From Candidatus Nanopelagicales bacterium (lineage in GTDB: Bacteria; Actinomycetota; Actinomycetes; S36-B12; GCA-2699445): a stretch of DNA of 60,291 nucleotides. Below the pieces are notes generated by a model. That model was not told the origin of the DNA. It searched no databases and saw only the letters and a list, made by a program, of their open reading frames with translations. The stretch is taken from NCBI GenBank assembly GCA_030700225.1, contig JAUYJT010000065.1, positions 1 to 60,291 on the forward strand, given 5' to 3'. The position numbers and the translations under genes were made by a program. Positions 548 through 58,903 of the stretch are shown one piece after another (the stretch's first letter is position 1; each line of letters opens with the position of its first letter).

Positions 548-667
548 AACTCACCACGAAATCTGTCTCACCGAGGTTGACATCTTCCGTGCGCGCGTCC
601 TAGTTTCTGACGCCAGAGCCGCGTCGGGAGTTCCCGGCACTGGCCGGCGCGGCCGGGAGTTCAGGCG

Positions 668-1105
668 TCACGGGCAGGGCGGCGGAGTCTTAGTCGTGTA
701 GTGGAACCGCAGCATCTTCGGCTCGTACGTCGACTCGAAGATCAGGTCCGTCCAGGTTGGCTCGCCTGGTCCCCCAATCTCCGCTCCGTAGACTGCCTTT
801 CCCTTGGCGTAGGGGCTCGGCCATCCCGGAGGCGGCCCACCATTCCCAAACGGCGACGTCTCCCAGGTGTACCCATCGAACTGGAGGAACTGGATCCCGC
901 ACTTCGTAGACAACTTCACCCGGGGACCTATGACCAGTGGTATCGGCATCTTGCTAGGCCACACGTCAGGAGTCGGCCAAACCTCAGATGGGAAAGGCTC
1001 CTGGGAAGAAGGTTCCGGCGCCGGAGAAGAACACGCCCCGACAACACCTACCAGCACGACCGCTACCACCATCGCGAGCCCACGGCGATTCCGGCCACTG
1101 CCCAT
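668..1105 (-). CDS. Small secreted lipoprotein, paralogue 2
   Basis: Predicted 145-residue lipoprotein of unknown function. The ATG at 1105 is preceded by GGGGAG five bases upstream, which favours it over the nearby GTG. The N-terminus has Arg residues, a hydrophobic stretch and the lipobox VVGAC, so it should be anchored outside the membrane after cleavage at Cys. The mature part has a Pro/Ser-rich linker with a WPTPDVWP motif and then a small domain with one Cys near residue 60 (STKCG) and another at the end (TPPPCP), possibly a disulphide. It is a close paralogue of the gene just upstream and lies third in an operon behind a serine protease. I do not recognise a named domain. Confidence 0.75.
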   Translation of the reverse strand: MGSGRNRRGLAMVVAVVLVGVVGACSSPAPEPSSQEPFPSEVWPTPDVWPSKMPIPLVIGPRVKLSTKCGIQFLQFDGYTWETSPFGNGGPPPGWPSPYAKGKAVYGAEIGGPGEPTWTDLIFESTYEPKMLRFHYTTKTPPPCP

Positions 1106-1232
1106 GATCACTCCCCTTACCAGGACGCAGCTGATCGGGGCCGACTCGGCCGCAGTGCTGCGCGCGTCCTGGTTTCTGACGCCAGAGCCGCGTCGGAAGT
1201 TCCCGGCACCGGCCGCCAACCGTGCCCAGGCG

Positions 1233-1688
1233 TCACGGGCAGGGAGGCGGAGTCTTAGTCGTGAAGTGGAACCGCAGCATGTTCGGCTCGTACTTCGAGT
1301 TGAATCGCAGCACGTCCCCCGGCTTCGGATCATTCATGATGTCCAACCTGAGGGCGTTCCCTTCTAGGAACTTGACGTATCCCTTGGCGTAGGGGCTCGG
1401 CCATCCCGGAGGCGGCCGACCATCACCGAACGGCGACGTCTCCCAGGTGTACCCATCGAACTGAAGGAACTGAACCCCGCACTTCGTCGACAACTTCACC
1501 TCGTCACCGACTATCGGCTCCTCGTAGTAGTTACCCTTCGGCCAAACGTCAGGAGTCGGCCAAACCTCAGACGGCGATGGCTCCGGGGACGGGGTATCCG
1601 GCGGGGGCGAGGAACACGCCGCCAAGGCCCCCACCAGGACCACTCCAACCACTAACGCCAACCCGCGCCGACTCCGGCCACTGCCCAT
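1233..1688 (-). CDS. Small secreted lipoprotein, paralogue 1
   Basis: Predicted 151-residue lipoprotein, paralogous to the next gene downstream. The ATG at 1688 follows a GGGGAG ribosome-binding site that sits just after the protease stop codon (12 bases between the genes), so the two are co-transcribed. It has a signal peptide ending in the lipobox ALAAC, a Pro/Ser-rich spacer with WPTPDVWP, a conserved core containing QFLQFDGYTWETSPFG and a Cys-terminated tail. The two paralogues differ most at residues about 100-130, where this copy carries a longer segment. No recognised domain. A role as partner, inhibitor or surface docking factor of the protease is only inference from position. Confidence 0.75.
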   Translation of the reverse strand: MGSGRSRRGLALVVGVVLVGALAACSSPPPDTPSPEPSPSEVWPTPDVWPKGNYYEEPIVGDEVKLSTKCGVQFLQFDGYTWETSPFGDGRPPPGWPSPYAKGYVKFLEGNALRLDIMNDPKPGDVLRFNSKYEPNMLRFHFTTKTPPPCP

Positions 1689-1700
1689 GATCACTCCCCT

Positions 1701-3113
1701 CTACCGCTTGACAAGAGTCACCTTGAAATCCGACAAAGCCTTCTTGATCGGAGCGAAGTAGACCCTGCTCGAACACAAGTTGCCCGGGATCGCGACCGAC
1801 CCAGACGGACACGCGTAGAAGTCTCTCCCCCCAGAAATGGTGCCTCTGACCTGTCTCTTGTCCTCCTGCTTCTTCTTCCCCGGACCCATGAACACCGGGC
1901 CACCGCTATCGCCTTCCGCGACTGCGATGCCGCTGCTGGCCACAGCCTTGACCCAAGGGCAGAACGGAATCTTCCCCTTGCTCGCGGCACACGTCTTGGT
2001 CTTCGTCACCTTCAACTTGCAGTGAACGCCAGAATTCGCGCCACTGGTGCACACATAGTCGCCGACCTGACTATCGCCCGCACTGCCAACGACCTTGTAC
2101 TTGGACTTCGGCGCGTTCCAGTCCCCGGTGTAGATCAGCGCGGTGACCTTGCCCGTTGCCCCAACCAGCGCCGTGTCGTGCTTGGGCAACACATCCCACA
2201 CCTCCCCGAACTTGGAGCCCTTCTTCGGGGGGTTGTTTCCATCCATGGCGTAGTACTTGCCGCCCTTGACCTCCCCGCAATGCTCGGCGGTGATGAACAC
2301 GTTTCTCCCGCCCTTGTCCTTGCCCGCGACACCGCTGGAGCACAACCTGCCTAACGGCGTCAGCAGCGCCGCACCGGAACGCCACGGCTGATCGGGCTTC
2401 CAACGCGGACCCTGGGCTAGAGTCACCCGCTCACCTTTGGTCACCGTGACTGGCACACCAACCGCCTTGGAGAACACCCCCCGGGTCGACTTCAGACCAT
2501 CTTGATCCGCCCCGGAAACCGCGACAACTTCCGCGTCCAACCCGCTGCCGGTCTGGCTCGGTGACGACTCCACCAGCGACCACCCAGTCGACCGCCGCAA
2601 CTTCCCGCGCCGCTCCCACAACTTGCCGGTCGCGACATCCAACTCCGCCTGCGTGTACGCGGCGGACGTGACAGTCACCGAAACACCCTTCGGAGGCCTA
2701 GCCAGCTTCCGGGCCACCCGTCGGCCCGGCTCGCCTTTCCACGCGAAAGTCACCGAACCCACATCGGGGTCTAGCCACACTCCACCGAACCCCTCAGGGC
2801 CTTTGAAATCCAAGGAGTACGCCGGTCCCAGGATCCTGGCAATCCACGCGTCCATGCGCGCTTGTCGCAACATCACGCGGCGGTACTTACCTCCCTGCGG
2901 CTCACCTGAGCTGCTGACACCAACGCCAGCGGTCTGAGCCCGCGACGGAACAACACCCGCGCCATCAGCGGCCACACCACCCGAGGTCACAGCGCCGCCA
3001 GGGTCCCCGGCCGTGGCTACGACCTCGCCCCCCCCCAACGCCAGTACGACCAGCGCACCAGCCACGACAGCCGACTTGCCCTTACTGAAGCGGGTTCCCC
3101 CGAAAGTAACCAT
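1701..3113 (-). CDS. Secreted streptogrisin-like serine protease (S1 family)
   Basis: A 470-residue exported protease precursor. Residues about 1-36 are a signal sequence with Lys/Arg then a hydrophobic run; residues about 40-240 form a long pro-region without recognised motifs; the C-terminal 230 residues are a chymotrypsin fold. The catalytic triad is visible: His in TAEHCG (about 276), Asp in HDTALVG (about 311) and Ser in GDSGGPV (about 402). Cys pairs around the His (RLCSSG...HCG) and in VCTSGANSGVHC resemble the streptogrisin/alpha-lytic protease group. The leaderless ATG lies six bases after a strong -10 box. It heads an operon with two duplicated lipoproteins. Substrate unknown. Confidence 0.88.
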   Translation of the reverse strand: MVTFGGTRFSKGKSAVVAGALVVLALGGGEVVATAGDPGGAVTSGGVAADGAGVVPSRAQTAGVGVSSSGEPQGGKYRRVMLRQARMDAWIARILGPAYSLDFKGPEGFGGVWLDPDVGSVTFAWKGEPGRRVARKLARPPKGVSVTVTSAAYTQAELDVATGKLWERRGKLRRSTGWSLVESSPSQTGSGLDAEVVAVSGADQDGLKSTRGVFSKAVGVPVTVTKGERVTLAQGPRWKPDQPWRSGAALLTPLGRLCSSGVAGKDKGGRNVFITAEHCGEVKGGKYYAMDGNNPPKKGSKFGEVWDVLPKHDTALVGATGKVTALIYTGDWNAPKSKYKVVGSAGDSQVGDYVCTSGANSGVHCKLKVTKTKTCAASKGKIPFCPWVKAVASSGIAVAEGDSGGPVFMGPGKKKQEDKRQVRGTISGGRDFYACPSGSVAIPGNLCSSRVYFAPIKKALSDFKVTLVKR

Positions 3114-6918: not shown

Positions 6919-8217
6919 ATGAGCAGACGCGCGCTAAGCCGCATCCTCGTGCCTCCCGGGCCGCCCGGAGTGGGGCTTGTGGCGGGCGCCCTGTCGCGGG
7001 CTTTGTCCGGTGGTCAGCCATTCGCACCCATCCCTCTGGCTTCGCAGACAACGCCTGCCGCGCATGCGGCTGCCATGTCCGCGGCTGTGGAAGCCAGCGC
7101 GCCCCTGAAACGCGACGACATCGCTATCGTGCTGGCCACGAGCGGGTCCACAGGAGAGCCCCGGGGCGTGGTGCTCACCTCCTCAGCTCTGACTGCTTCC
7201 GCACAGCTTGGGTCCGCCGCCATGGGGCCCCCAGGTGTGTGGCTGACCGCGATGCCCGTTACAGGAATCGGCGGGCTGCTCACGGTGGCCAGGGCGCTGC
7301 TGGCTGGAGGCGAGCCCATGGCCTGGCCAGGTGTCGGTGGTGCGGAGCCGTTCACCGCCAAGTCGTTCACTTCAACTGCGCGGAGCGTCTTGGACCGAGC
7401 GCGAGCTGATGGGTTACCCGCCTACGTGTCCCTTGTGCCCACTCAAGTGACCCGCCTGCTCGGCGATCCCGCTGCCCTGGACGCGCTGGCGGGTTTCGGC
7501 CGGGTCATCGTTGGAGGGGCCCGCTTGGCGCGGCACTCAAGGGCCGCGGCGACTGCGGCCGGGGTGCGGATCGTCGAAACGTACGGCATGACCGAAACCT
7601 GCGGCGGAGTCGTCTATGACGGCAAGCCGCTGCCAGGAGTCCTGGTGGATGTCTGCGCCGACACTGGCGTGGTCCGACTTGGAGGACCAACAATCGCCGT
7701 CGGCTACCGCCTGCGCCCGGATCTGGACCGCCGCCGATTCGCGAACGGATGGTTCATCACGTCCGACCTCGGGCGCTGGGACGGCGAGACGCTGACGGTG
7801 CTGGGACGTTGCGACGATGTGATCAAAGTGGGGGGAGTCAAGGTCTCTTTGCCGGCGGTGACCGAAGCCGTGCGCTCGGATTCCCGGGTCATCGACGCGC
7901 TCACCGTCGCCGCCCAGGACCCCGAATGGGGCGCTGTCCCGACTACGTATGTCGTTCCAGATGACGCTTCAGCGACCCGACCAGGCGTTCTGGCCGACGC
8001 TCTCACGGTCGAACTGATAGGAATCGTGACTTCCAGATTGGGCCGCGCTTCCGCGCCCAGGCGGATTGAATTCGTAGCTGAACTCCCGCACCTTCCGAGC
8101 GGCAAGGCGGGGATCCTCCCCCACCCCGCTGGGGGCACCCTCCCCCACTTCGTGGGGGGACCCCCAACGAAGTGGGGGAGGGGGCACCCAGGCCCGCCAG
8201 CGGACAGTCAAACCTGA
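6919..8217 (+). CDS. menE: o-Succinylbenzoate-CoA ligase with in-frame palindromic insertion near the C-terminus
   Basis: ANL-family adenylating enzyme, about 432 residues. Motifs: ATSGSTGEPRGV (P-loop-like A3), VIVGGARL, ETYGMTETCGGVVYDG (A5), FITSDLGRWDGETLTVLGRCDDVIKVGG (A7-A8 regions) and LPSGKAG, the C-terminal catalytic Lys motif. After this motif the frame runs through a block of G/C palindromes (8104-8188), replacing the usual short end of the protein. The ATG at 6919 lies seven bases after TAGGCT (6906-6911), a leaderless start, so a GTG at 6862 is unlikely. The stop overlaps the menA start (TGATG). Confidence 0.92.
   Translation: MSRRALSRILVPPGPPGVGLVAGALSRALSGGQPFAPIPLASQTTPAAHAAAMSAAVEASAPLKRDDIAIVLATSGSTGEPRGVVLTSSALTASAQLGSAAMGPPGVWLTAMPVTGIGGLLTVARALLAGGEPMAWPGVGGAEPFTAKSFTSTARSVLDRARADGLPAYVSLVPTQVTRLLGDPAALDALAGFGRVIVGGARLARHSRAAATAAGVRIVETYGMTETCGGVVYDGKPLPGVLVDVCADTGVVRLGGPTIAVGYRLRPDLDRRRFANGWFITSDLGRWDGETLTVLGRCDDVIKVGGVKVSLPAVTEAVRSDSRVIDALTVAAQDPEWGAVPTTYVVPDDASATRPGVLADALTVELIGIVTSRLGRASAPRRIEFVAELPHLPSGKAGILPHPAGGTLPHFVGGPPTKWGRGHPGPPADSQT
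8104..8188. repeat. G/C palindromic repeat block inside menE
   Basis: Three successive hairpin-forming units, with arms such as CCCCCAC/GTGGGGG around TTC and the mirrored GAAGTGGGGG, separated by GG/CC-rich spacers. The same type of unit occurs inside hemA at 22262-22345. The block keeps the reading frame open and adds about 28 residues rich in Gly, Pro, His and Trp. Confidence 0.8.
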
Positions 8218-9086
8218 TGGCGACTGCCCGCCAGTGGATCGCCGGTGCCAGACCGCGCACACTGCCCGCCGCGATCGCACCCGTCGCTGTTGGAACCGGT
8301 GTCGCCGCGCACGAGCACGCGTTCTCCGCTCCTAGAGCGATCCTGGCCCTAGCAGTCGCGCTGGCACTACAGGTCGGCGTCAACTTCGCCAACGACTACA
8401 GCGACGGGGTACGCGGCACGGACGCGGTACGCGTCGGCCCGGTGAGACTGGTTGGCCAGCGACTGGCACCACCGGGCGCTGTCCTCGCGGCCGCAGTCGC
8501 GTCGTTCGGGCTCGCCGGGATCGCGGGCCTGGCGCTAATCGCGTTGTCCGGGGCCTGGTGGCTCCTCGCGGTGGGAGCGGCCGCGATCGCGTCCGCGTGG
8601 TTCTACACCGGTGGCCGCCGCCCGTACGGGTATGCCGGCCTCGGGGAGGCTTTCGTCTTTGCCTTCTTCGGCGTAGTCGCTGTCATGGGCACCGCGTACA
8701 CGCAAACCGGGACGCTCACCACGCTGGCGCTCATCGCCTCGATCCCACCCGGGCTTTGGGCTTGCGCGATCCTGCTGGCTAACAACCTGCGGGACATCCC
8801 GGGAGACCGCGAAGTCGGCAAGATGACTCTGGCCGTGAAGCTCGGCGATCGGAGGACCCGGCATGTGTATGTCGCCGTGATGGGGCTTGGTTTCGTCGCG
8901 ATCGCAGCCCTCGCCATCTTCTCCCTCCCGGCGCTCATCGGGCTGCTGGCCGTGCCCTTGGCTGTCAAGCCAGTGTCCGTTGTCGCTTCCAGTGCCTCTG
9001 GGCCAGCTCTGATCCCAGTGCTCGGCGGCACGGGCGCGGTCCTGCTGGCGGGCGGGCTGCTCGTGGCCGTCGGCCTCGGCGTCTGA
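8217..9086 (+). CDS. menA: 1,4-dihydroxy-2-naphthoate polyprenyltransferase
   Basis: UbiA-family integral membrane prenyltransferase that attaches the isoprenoid chain to DHNA. About 289 residues with around eight hydrophobic segments. The two Asp-rich motifs are present: NFANDYSDGVRGTD near residue 60 and NNLRDIPGDREVGK near residue 190. The start ATG shares a base with the menE stop codon, so the genes are coupled; an in-frame start at 8172 inside the palindromic block is unlikely. It ends the plus-strand men pair and converges on the restriction endonuclease gene. Confidence 0.95.
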   Translation: MATARQWIAGARPRTLPAAIAPVAVGTGVAAHEHAFSAPRAILALAVALALQVGVNFANDYSDGVRGTDAVRVGPVRLVGQRLAPPGAVLAAAVASFGLAGIAGLALIALSGAWWLLAVGAAAIASAWFYTGGRRPYGYAGLGEAFVFAFFGVVAVMGTAYTQTGTLTTLALIASIPPGLWACAILLANNLRDIPGDREVGKMTLAVKLGDRRTRHVYVAVMGLGFVAIAALAIFSLPALIGLLAVPLAVKPVSVVASSASGPALIPVLGGTGAVLLAGGLLVAVGLGV

Positions 9087-20674: not shown

Positions 20675-21582
20675 CGGACACTCTCCCCTAGATAACGGCC
20701 GGCCCCGACTGCGAGGAGTTCGCCGGCCACTCGATGACCGAGCGAAACAGCCTCACTGACAGGTCCGGCAGCGGACACACGGACAGGATCAGCGCCCTCG
20801 GGATCGAGGACGGCGGCAGTCAAGTTCAGTTCGTTGCCAAGCGCTCGCCCAAGGGCTCCGACCGGGGCGGCACACCCGACGCGAAGCGCGACCAGCACAG
20901 CTCGCTCGGCGTCGACCTCGGCGTGGGTCGGAGCGTGATCGAGCTGGGCGACTGCCAGCGCGAGTCCAGCGTCGGCGCGCGCCCTAACCTCAACGGCCAG
21001 GGCGCCCTGTGCAGGTGCCGGAAGCATCATGTCGGGTTCAAGGATCTCGGCGATGCGTTCCGACAACCCGAGCCTGTGCAGACCCGCGGCAGCCAGGACG
21101 ACCGCGTCGAACTCACCGGAATCGAGCTTGGCGAGCCTGGTTCCCACGTTGCCCCTCACAGGCACGGTCCGCAGATCTGGACGCAGGGTCCGGATGGCCG
21201 CCGCGCGGCGCGGTGACCCGGTCGCGATCGTCGCCCCCGCTGGTAGCTCCGCCAAAGGGACACCGCCGCGCGTGCAGACCGCGTCCCGCGCGTCAGCGCG
21301 TGCCGGGACAGCGGCCAGGTCAAGCCCCGCCGCGGGTGCCGTGGGGAGGTCCTTCAGAGAATGAACCGCCAGGTCCGCTGAACCGTCCAGGATCGCCGCA
21401 CGAACGTCACTGACGAAAACCCCTGATCCGCCTATCTCATGCAACGCTTCCGTGGACTGATCGCCCTTGGTCACTACTTGGAGTAGCTCGATGCCGATGC
21501 CCGACTGTCGGAGCTGATTAGCGACGAAGCGGGCTTGCGCGAGCGCCAAGTCGGAGGAGCGAGTCGCAAGTTTGTAGGTCAC
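20671..21582 (-). CDS. hemC: Porphobilinogen deaminase (hydroxymethylbilane synthase)
   Basis: 303 residues. Motifs: ATRSSDLALAQARFVANQL, VTKGDQ, AVHSLKDLP with the catalytic Asp region, TGSPRRAAAIRTLRPDL with substrate-binding Arg residues, VRGNVGTRLAKL and VGCAAPVGALG containing the Cys that carries the dipyrromethane cofactor. Start and stop overlap hemA and hemD by four bases, showing translational coupling. Confidence 0.96.
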   Translation of the reverse strand: MTYKLATRSSDLALAQARFVANQLRQSGIGIELLQVVTKGDQSTEALHEIGGSGVFVSDVRAAILDGSADLAVHSLKDLPTAPAAGLDLAAVPARADARDAVCTRGGVPLAELPAGATIATGSPRRAAAIRTLRPDLRTVPVRGNVGTRLAKLDSGEFDAVVLAAAGLHRLGLSERIAEILEPDMMLPAPAQGALAVEVRARADAGLALAVAQLDHAPTHAEVDAERAVLVALRVGCAAPVGALGRALGNELNLTAAVLDPEGADPVRVSAAGPVSEAVSLGHRVAGELLAVGAGRYLGESVR

Positions 21583-22997
21583 TGGACTACCTCCCTGAGG
21601 CGCTCGGCCTCGCGGAGGTCGGCAACATCGGCATCAGACGTACCCGGCACCAGAGCGACCTGATCGACGGCGAGGTTGAAGAGGGAATTCAGCGCTTGGG
21701 CGTACTGGGCGCTGTCGCGATCAGTCGCCAGCTCCTTGAGCCGAACCGTCGGGGTGTGCAACAAGGTGTTGAACGCGCGCCGGAATCCGAGCTCGATTTC
21801 CTCCCATTGGTCCTGCGTGATCTCGGGCAACCGCCCCCGGACCCGCAGCAGTTCTTCATCGACGACCGCTGATCCCCAAGCCCTAAGACCGAGCATGACC
21901 GGCTCGAATTTCCGGGCGGCGCGCGTAGCCACGAATTCTGTCAGTTCCTCTGCCACAACGCGCCTGGCGGCCGTCGCGCCATCTGACTCCGCCCCATCGG
22001 CGACTGCCAAACCGACGTCAGACAGGTCCAATCGGACGACTCCGGGCAAGTCCGCGATACCGATCTCGGAGTCGTGCGGCATCGCCATGTCGAGCACTAC
22101 CAGGGGTCGGCCGCCTCTGCCGATCAGCGTCGGCCGGACGATGTCGGTCGTCAACACGACGCCGGTCGCGCCAGTGCAGCACACGACCAGGTCCGCGTCG
22201 GTGATCAGTTCTGGAAGCTCACTCAGTCCGGCCACATCTGAGCCACGACCCAAGCCTCGACCCTGTTCCACTGGAGGGGACCCCTCCCCCACGAAGTGGG
22301 GGGACCCCTCCCCCACCTCGTGGGGGGACCCCCCAGGTCGTGGGGAACGGTTAGCCACTGTCACTTCGCCGACGCCCAACCGCGAAAGGTGAGCCAGCGT
22401 CAGCGACCCCAACGCTCCGGCTCCGATGACAACGACAGCTGCCCCGCCGGGTTGGGCACCGCCCAGTCCGGCCAGCCGCTCGAAGGCCTGCGCCAAACCA
22501 ACTGACACGATCGACGCCCCGGCGCCGTCGATCGGGGTAGCCGACCTAACGAGCTTGCCAACCCTGAGGGCCGCTTGTCCGACTTCGTTCAGTTCCCGGC
22601 CCGCGGTGCCTGAGTCCTGCGCTGCCACGACCGCCGCGCGCACCTGCCCCATGATCTGCTGCTCGCCGACCACCATCGAGTCAAGACCGGCTGCTAGTTC
22701 GAACATGTGCTGGATAGTCCGCTCGTGATAGCGGACGTAGCAGTGCGGCATCAGTTCCTCCACCGCCATACCCGCCCCCTTGGCCAACAGGGCAGAGATA
22801 TCGTTCACTGCCGCGTGGAACCTGTCCGCTTCGGCGTACACCTCAAGCCGGTTGCACGTCGACACGACCATTGACTCAGCGATGTGTTCACTGGCTAGGG
22901 CTTCCGACGCCAACCGGACCTGGTCCACTCCCGCGAGTTGATCGAGCACAGCGATCGGCGCTGTCTTGTGACTTGCCCCGACCACCAAGAGAGTCAC
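21579..22997 (-). CDS. hemA: Glutamyl-tRNA reductase with in-frame palindromic insertion
   Basis: First committed enzyme of C5 heme synthesis. About 472 residues. Motifs: LLVVGASHKTAPIAVLDQL, VVSTCNRLEVYAE with the catalytic Cys, MVVGEQQIMGQVR, and the NADPH site VVVIGAGALGSLTLAHLSRLGVGEVTVANRSP. Just after NRSP the frame runs through a G/C palindromic block (residues about 217-246, including SPHEVGEGSPHFVGEG) before normal sequence resumes at ELPELITDADLVVCCTGA. The GTG at 22997 is chosen because GGGAGGTGA lies five bases upstream; an in-frame GTG at 23024 has no such site. Confidence 0.93.
   Translation of the reverse strand: MTLLVVGASHKTAPIAVLDQLAGVDQVRLASEALASEHIAESMVVSTCNRLEVYAEADRFHAAVNDISALLAKGAGMAVEELMPHCYVRYHERTIQHMFELAAGLDSMVVGEQQIMGQVRAAVVAAQDSGTAGRELNEVGQAALRVGKLVRSATPIDGAGASIVSVGLAQAFERLAGLGGAQPGGAAVVVIGAGALGSLTLAHLSRLGVGEVTVANRSPRPGGSPHEVGEGSPHFVGEGSPPVEQGRGLGRGSDVAGLSELPELITDADLVVCCTGATGVVLTTDIVRPTLIGRGGRPLVVLDMAMPHDSEIGIADLPGVVRLDLSDVGLAVADGAESDGATAARRVVAEELTEFVATRAARKFEPVMLGLRAWGSAVVDEELLRVRGRLPEITQDQWEEIELGFRRAFNTLLHTPTVRLKELATDRDSAQYAQALNSLFNLAVDQVALVPGTSDADVADLREAERLREVVQ
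22262..22345. repeat. G/C palindromic repeat block inside hemA
   Basis: Three hairpin units in a row: CCCCACGAAGTGGGG, CCCCACCTCGTGGGG and CCCCCAGGTCGTGGGG, separated by GGACCCCT-type spacers. They match the unit type in menE (8104-8188). In the hemA frame they encode about 28 extra residues at a surface position after the second beta strand of the Rossmann domain, without a frameshift. Confidence 0.85.
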
Positions 22998-23190
22998 CGC
23001 GCCGTCACCTCCCGCCGCAGACACGTCCGCGGCTCAAACTGCGCCTGTCGCGACCGCGAATCGTTCGGCAACCGTGCTCCCCATGAAGCGGCGCGGCGGC
23101 TGCCGCACCGATGCCCGCACCAGGCTGGTTCTACTGGCTCGCCCCTGCGGCAATCCGGGAATATCCCGCCATTGCGCTCGGCGTGCCCTC

Positions 23191-58724: not shown

Positions 58725-58903
58725 CTGTCATAACCAAACCCCGTAGTCCGCCCATTGGCATCAACCGACCGGATCGGCGCGCCATCTGCGGCCCTAGTGT
58801 TGACCGCCAGGCTGGCTGAGGATGATGCCGTCACGGTGGGCTGATCTTTCAGCGACGCGAGGGCCGCGTCGGACCCCGACGAACACGGCCCTCGGAACCC
58901 GAC
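58725..58903 (-). pseudogene. RHS/YD-repeat protein remnant
   Basis: The minus-strand frame reads QPTVTASSSASLAVNTRAADG and then the YD-repeat motif RSVDANGRTTGFGYDSLGRT, typical of RHS proteins. The rest of the several-kilobase gene is missing on both sides; beyond the motif lies the ribosome-binding site of the next membrane protein gene. Part of it is duplicated, inverted, at 61-139. Confidence 0.7.
58798..58876. repeat. RHS-derived segment, right inverted copy
   Basis: 79 bp matching 61-139 in reverse complement with five mismatches. The two copies lie about 58.7 kb apart in opposite orientation. Confidence 0.8.

Follow-up and report, generated by a model that had tools for sequence, protein, structure and literature searches.

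The palindromic array inside menE in the DNA analysed here (the window, 60,291 nt) belongs to a repeat that very likely is a family of minute palindromic elements, dispersed and specific to this lineage. Its basic unit, TGGGGGTCCCCCCACGAAGTGGGGGA, occurs as single copies or short arrays, in both orientations, in intergenic DNA as well as in genes. The observations as a whole are best explained, in all likelihood, by tiny palindromes of this lineage being kept in genes where the protein tolerates the insert. The host, a 2.6 Mb draft genome in 85 contigs (95.7% complete), probably belongs to the order Candidatus Nanopelagicales, as suggested by its closest named IleRS relatives, which come from Candidatus Nanopelagicales and other actinobacterial MAGs (70–74%). 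The features of the window that carry the two arrays are as follows.

6919..8217, forward strand: menE, AMP-binding ligase (PF00501/PF13193)
~8115..8190, forward strand: palindromic array in menE, three hairpin units, encoding about LPHPAGGTLPHFVGGPPTKWGRG
8118-8134, 8142-8158 and 8162-8178, forward strand: the menE hairpin units
8217..9086, forward strand: menA-like gene, named from the preliminary description and from context
21582..23033, reverse strand: hemA, glutamyl-tRNA reductase, open frame with insert (PF05201, PF00745, PF01488)
~22280..22351, reverse strand: palindromic array in hemA, three units (22286-22302, 22310-22326, 22330-22346)

The preliminary description had reported three G/C hairpin units just after the LPSGK motif of MenE, spanning 8104-8188. 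The units are indeed present at that place; however, the span began too early, as 8104-8114 is ordinary menE. The insert has the LPSGKAGI stretch on one side and the native C-terminus, HPGPPADSQT, on the other. The MenE of a relative (L084) reads GKAGIFGGKHPSGRDSRPT, i.e., GKAGI-FGGK-HPSGRDSRPT vs. GKAGI-insert-HPGPPADSQT here, and the native C-terminus thus seems to be kept beyond an insert whose exact length is uncertain. Units of the same type had also been claimed inside hemA, and this is borne out by the array listed above, which is 79% identical to the menE copy over 68 nt. HemA gains a net 24 aa (72 nt) immediately behind the ANRS strand in its NAD(P)-binding domain, where the insert could possibly affect cofactor binding.

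Genome-wide, the unit has the consensus nGGGGGTCCCCCCACGAAGTGGGGGAGGGG and measures 26 bp with a net step of 24 bp, and arrays reach ~98 bp. Using the 19-mer CTCCCCCACTTCGTGGGGG at ≤3 mismatches, 45 matches (22 + 23) were found in the host genome vs. 0 for a reversed control, and chance occurrence is excluded; the two spots first noticed are therefore not a coincidence. A covariance model trained on 34 units identified 39 units in the host genome at E ≤ 0.01, or 47 when the threshold was relaxed to E ≤ 0.1, and 0 units in 59 relatives, all of them outside its genus. Since the 34 source units match by construction, the contrast with the relatives is the informative part. The 39 units correspond to ~27 loci when five lipoprotein copies are counted as one event, and in the count of genic and intergenic copies that the preliminary description had proposed, about half of the loci lie in frame within protein genes. 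Among 395 other sampled genomes of the phylum, one stray match at 1 mismatch was observed; the exact 26-mer had no match in the named genome collection, nor did a 24-mer in viral contigs. A longer-stem relative of the unit, the repeat TGGGGGTCCCCCCACCCGCGAAGCGGGAAGGGGGAGGGG, was observed on contigs C3, C37, C48, C61, C71 and C72 (L254, L255), mostly near contig ends; five of these places share one model score and the sixth comes close to it.

The description of an element inside two essential-pathway genes was right for menE and hemA and an under-count overall, as ileS, leuA, leuD and others also carry it. Open frames with the unit and with Pfam support comprise ileS, menE, leuA, hemA, leuD, a beta-lactamase, a TesB-like thioesterase and an AtuA-family gene. 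They also include a DUF2520 protein and a holin-like protein, both with the unit on the N-terminal side, and a histidine phosphatase with it at the C-terminal end; the start codons of the N-terminal cases are uncertain. A lipoprotein family is also among the in-frame hosts, L016 has a further N-terminal copy without a Pfam match, and a cytosine methylase carries a weaker copy at its C-terminus. Immediately 3′ of this methylase lies an Eco29kI-type restriction gene (L250, contig C68). No second copy of ileS, leuA, hemA, menE or leuD was found in the 95.7% complete draft.

Insertion-free forms, which had been suggested as a check, were found in the relatives for ileS, leuA, hemA, leuD and the thioesterase. 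The inserts of IleRS (14 aa, 42 nt), LeuA (22 aa, 66 nt) and HemA are each absent in 7 of 7 same-family relatives, that of LeuD (8 aa) in 4 of 4, and that of the thioesterase (8 aa, GGPPTKWG) in the three examined; the latter was placed by eye, as its linker is variable and automatic alignment scatters the insert. The ileS and leuA inserts are not multiples of 24. Alignments to solved structures (M. tuberculosis LeuA, one IleRS and one LeuD) also have a gap at the inserts. The inserts would lie in surface loops. The outcome that could have spoken against insertion, i.e., relatives conserving the same residues at the protein level without palindromic DNA, did not occur.

The most precise view of the insertion comes from a family of small lipoprotein-like genes, of which eight copies were examined: five are filled and three are empty, including these two in the window.

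834..850, reverse strand: empty site in lipoprotein-like paralog, window copy 1 (gene ~698-1105), TTTGGGAATGG, no element
1414..1430, reverse strand: empty site in lipoprotein-like paralog, window copy 2 (~1263-1718), TTCGGTGATGG, no element

When these paralogs are aligned as DNA, filled sites exceed empty ones by exactly 24 bp net (8 codons), with 26 bp replacing 2: a filled site reads ..TTCGG[TGGGGGTCCCCCCACGAAGTGGGGGA]ATGG, whereas an empty one reads ..GG-TG-ATGG or ..GG-GA-ATGG. No target-site duplication, as for a MITE with TSD, was found between filled and empty lipoprotein paralogs. The direction of the change here, gain vs. loss, we infer from what relatives show for the other genes. 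The lipoprotein-like genes are in tandem with a lipobox-like ACSSP (window 590-1718, contigs C8, C39 and C57), with variable presence of the element. Near both contig ends, at 59-139 and 58798-58878, the window also has an 81-bp inverted repeat (94% complementary).

The 24-bp step was also observed in an intergenic repeat, termed repeat B (core GCGTGAGGCTTGAAGCC), of which 23 copies at ≤1 mismatch were found and which is nearly confined to the host genome. Repeat B is REP-like and lineage-specific, its core sits inside a longer variable stem, and its copies (L046-L075) are mostly intergenic. Several of them carry a nested palindromic unit. Six empty copies have a constant 9-nt gap, relative to which filled copies are longer by 24, 24, 48 and 96, and also by 23, 25, 28 and 31; a ninth filled copy (L005) reads as 48 by stem symmetry, judged by eye. 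The nets of 24, 24, 48 and 96 indicate that 24 bp recurs even in places with no reading frame to preserve, alongside drift through indels. Multiples of 3 make up 6/6 genic nets vs. 5/9 intergenic ones, a difference that is not significant (Fisher p = 0.09) and that includes B copies sharing flanks and hence not independent.

None of the six frames of the unit contains a stop codon (WGSPHEVG, GGPPTKWG, GVPPRSGG, SPTSWGDP, PPLRGGTP, PHFVGGPP), and the frame in use differs between host genes. The use of several frames speaks against selection for any particular peptide; a single frame, as for a selected peptide, was considered and rejected. In the mechanism that we propose, one unit would add a net 24 bp, or 8 codons (more in arrays), and leave the downstream protein intact because the unit is stop-free and 24 is divisible by 3. 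Genic copies would persist where the protein has a loop, linker or terminus that can accommodate the extra peptide (e.g., GGPPTKWG, PHEVGE, DPQRSGG), and copies elsewhere would be removed by selection. The insert-bearing proteins presumably work, and the element would be a neutral or mildly harmful passenger. An alternative that appears unlikely is that the element is gene-adapted, with an integration step that is intrinsically 24 bp and a sequence lacking stops in all six frames, so that frame would be kept by design rather than by later selection; if true, it would give a steady supply of short peptide insertions in core enzymes.

The tolerated palindrome is most likely a non-autonomous hairpin repeat; it may spread either with a Y1 (IS200/IS605-type) transposase acting in trans or by template switching at G-runs. 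The genome contains one Y1_Tnp gene (95.7% complete draft), which looks like an IS605 tnpA beside tnpB. A related but different G/C hairpin interrupts this tnpB and changes its frame; it was recognised by eye, is absent from the covariance-model matches, and lies inside tnpB rather than flanking tnpA. The hairpin at the IS605 right end, GAATCCCCCACACATTCATGTCGGGGAGG, considered as a source of the element, bears only a loose resemblance to it, and no useful shared ends came from a second tnpB locus on contig C7. In the C-terminal part of that second tnpB (L257), a related hairpin, GGGGTACCCCTTCCCGAAGGGGGA, was reconstructed from an encoded KREGEGYPFPKGDTPKAG stretch. Neither a dedicated transposase for the unit nor a recognisable RAYT was found among the Y1_Tnp matches of the draft, and no strict target motif could be defined.

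That the copies owe their origin to template switching or slippage during replication at G/C-runs and not to transposition, the 24-bp step being the copied hairpin unit, is a possibility we take seriously without thinking it probable, and it disputes the route of spread only. It would account for units being arrayed in either orientation at offsets of 24 and 20, for the missing target-site duplication and for the element having no transposase of its own, and several targets (thioesterase, leuD, ileS, hemA) probably already had TGGGG or its complement. However, the ~27 dispersed loci share one consensus, in most cases with the CGAAG loop, which would require copying between distant sites, and we slightly favour hairpin transposition in trans. 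An assembly or binning artefact might be suspected in a draft genome with several copies near contig ends, yet the copies differ in sequence and keep the frame in conserved genes, and filled and empty paralogs differ by just the unit at the insertion site, making such an origin very improbable.

Two further readings concern what the inserts are. The preliminary description had considered a role in mRNA structure at the menE/menA junction, and host functions such as stability, ribosome pausing or regulation can be added to it. The predicted fold at the menE end is very stable (z = −4.2 for RNA at 8090-8230 and z = −5.2 for DNA at 8115-8190, with 0/200 shuffles equally stable in each case), and the menA-like gene starts with an ATG that shares letters with the menE stop (TGATG), ~35-40 nt beyond the last hairpin unit. 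However, the same unit occurs at internal, N-terminal and C-terminal positions of many unrelated genes and inside intergenic repeats, relatives lack it, and Rfam has no match in the four loci tested; the junction role was not upheld, and an mRNA function in general is decidedly improbable. Covariation, considered as proof of an RNA role, was uninformative, as the stem is nearly invariant. That the inserts are native, conserved protein parts that are G/C palindromic by coincidence agrees with the frames being open throughout, but is scarcely credible given that they are missing in every same-family relative examined, that the match lengths of 80 named IleRS homologues (lengths only) leave no room for one, and that the host genes translate this DNA in several frames. 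A genome-wide repeat, insertion-free relatives and paralogs both filled and empty all point to a small dispersed repeat tolerated as coding sequence, which is the reading first offered by analogy with Rickettsia.

The Rickettsia palindromic elements (RPEs) were reportedly described by Ogata et al. in 2000 and 2002, and to our knowledge no transposase is known for them. RPEs are 105–146 bp long (PMC2229807) and occur in frame in 19 Rickettsia protein genes, and a guanylate kinase bearing one is still active (reviews PMC2229807, PMC10969869). Like RPEs, the present repeats are dispersed palindromes, found in intergenic DNA and in frame within conserved genes, and are missing from relatives; they are set apart from the RPE description by a unit of 26 bp with its 24-bp net step, by arrays of ~98 bp at most, and by a GC-rich, actinobacterial host. 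Intragenic GTAG/CGTC REPs measure 20–40 bp and are known in several species, their dimers or groups adding 20–30 residues, and REPs are predominantly extragenic (PMC3733652). As with these, our hairpins are single or opposed dimers, some wholly within ORFs; in contrast to REPs, the consensus has no GTAG/CGTC at its ends on either strand, about half of the loci are genic, and no RAYT was recognised in the draft. By the titles cited in PMC2229807, protein-coding palindromic repeats also exist in Wolbachia and Methanocaldococcus jannaschii, which are different hosts. Perfect coding inverted repeats of up to 284 bp occur in Nematomorpha mitochondrial genes, likewise within coding sequence, which the abstract does not describe as one dispersed family (PMC6649704).

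In the literature found, coding palindromic repeats are those of Rickettsia and Wolbachia, those of an archaeon, and some of the intragenic REPs; the open-access literature searched gave no actinobacterial precedent, which is not proof of absence. The present case, GC-rich and actinobacterial, with exact empty sites, the 24-bp step and a single-copy IleRS among its hosts, offers a clean system for studying the spread of such repeats and the way in which enzymes cope with random insertions in loops. The family functions like RPEs and REPs and is a member of neither, as judged by RPE length and REP tags.
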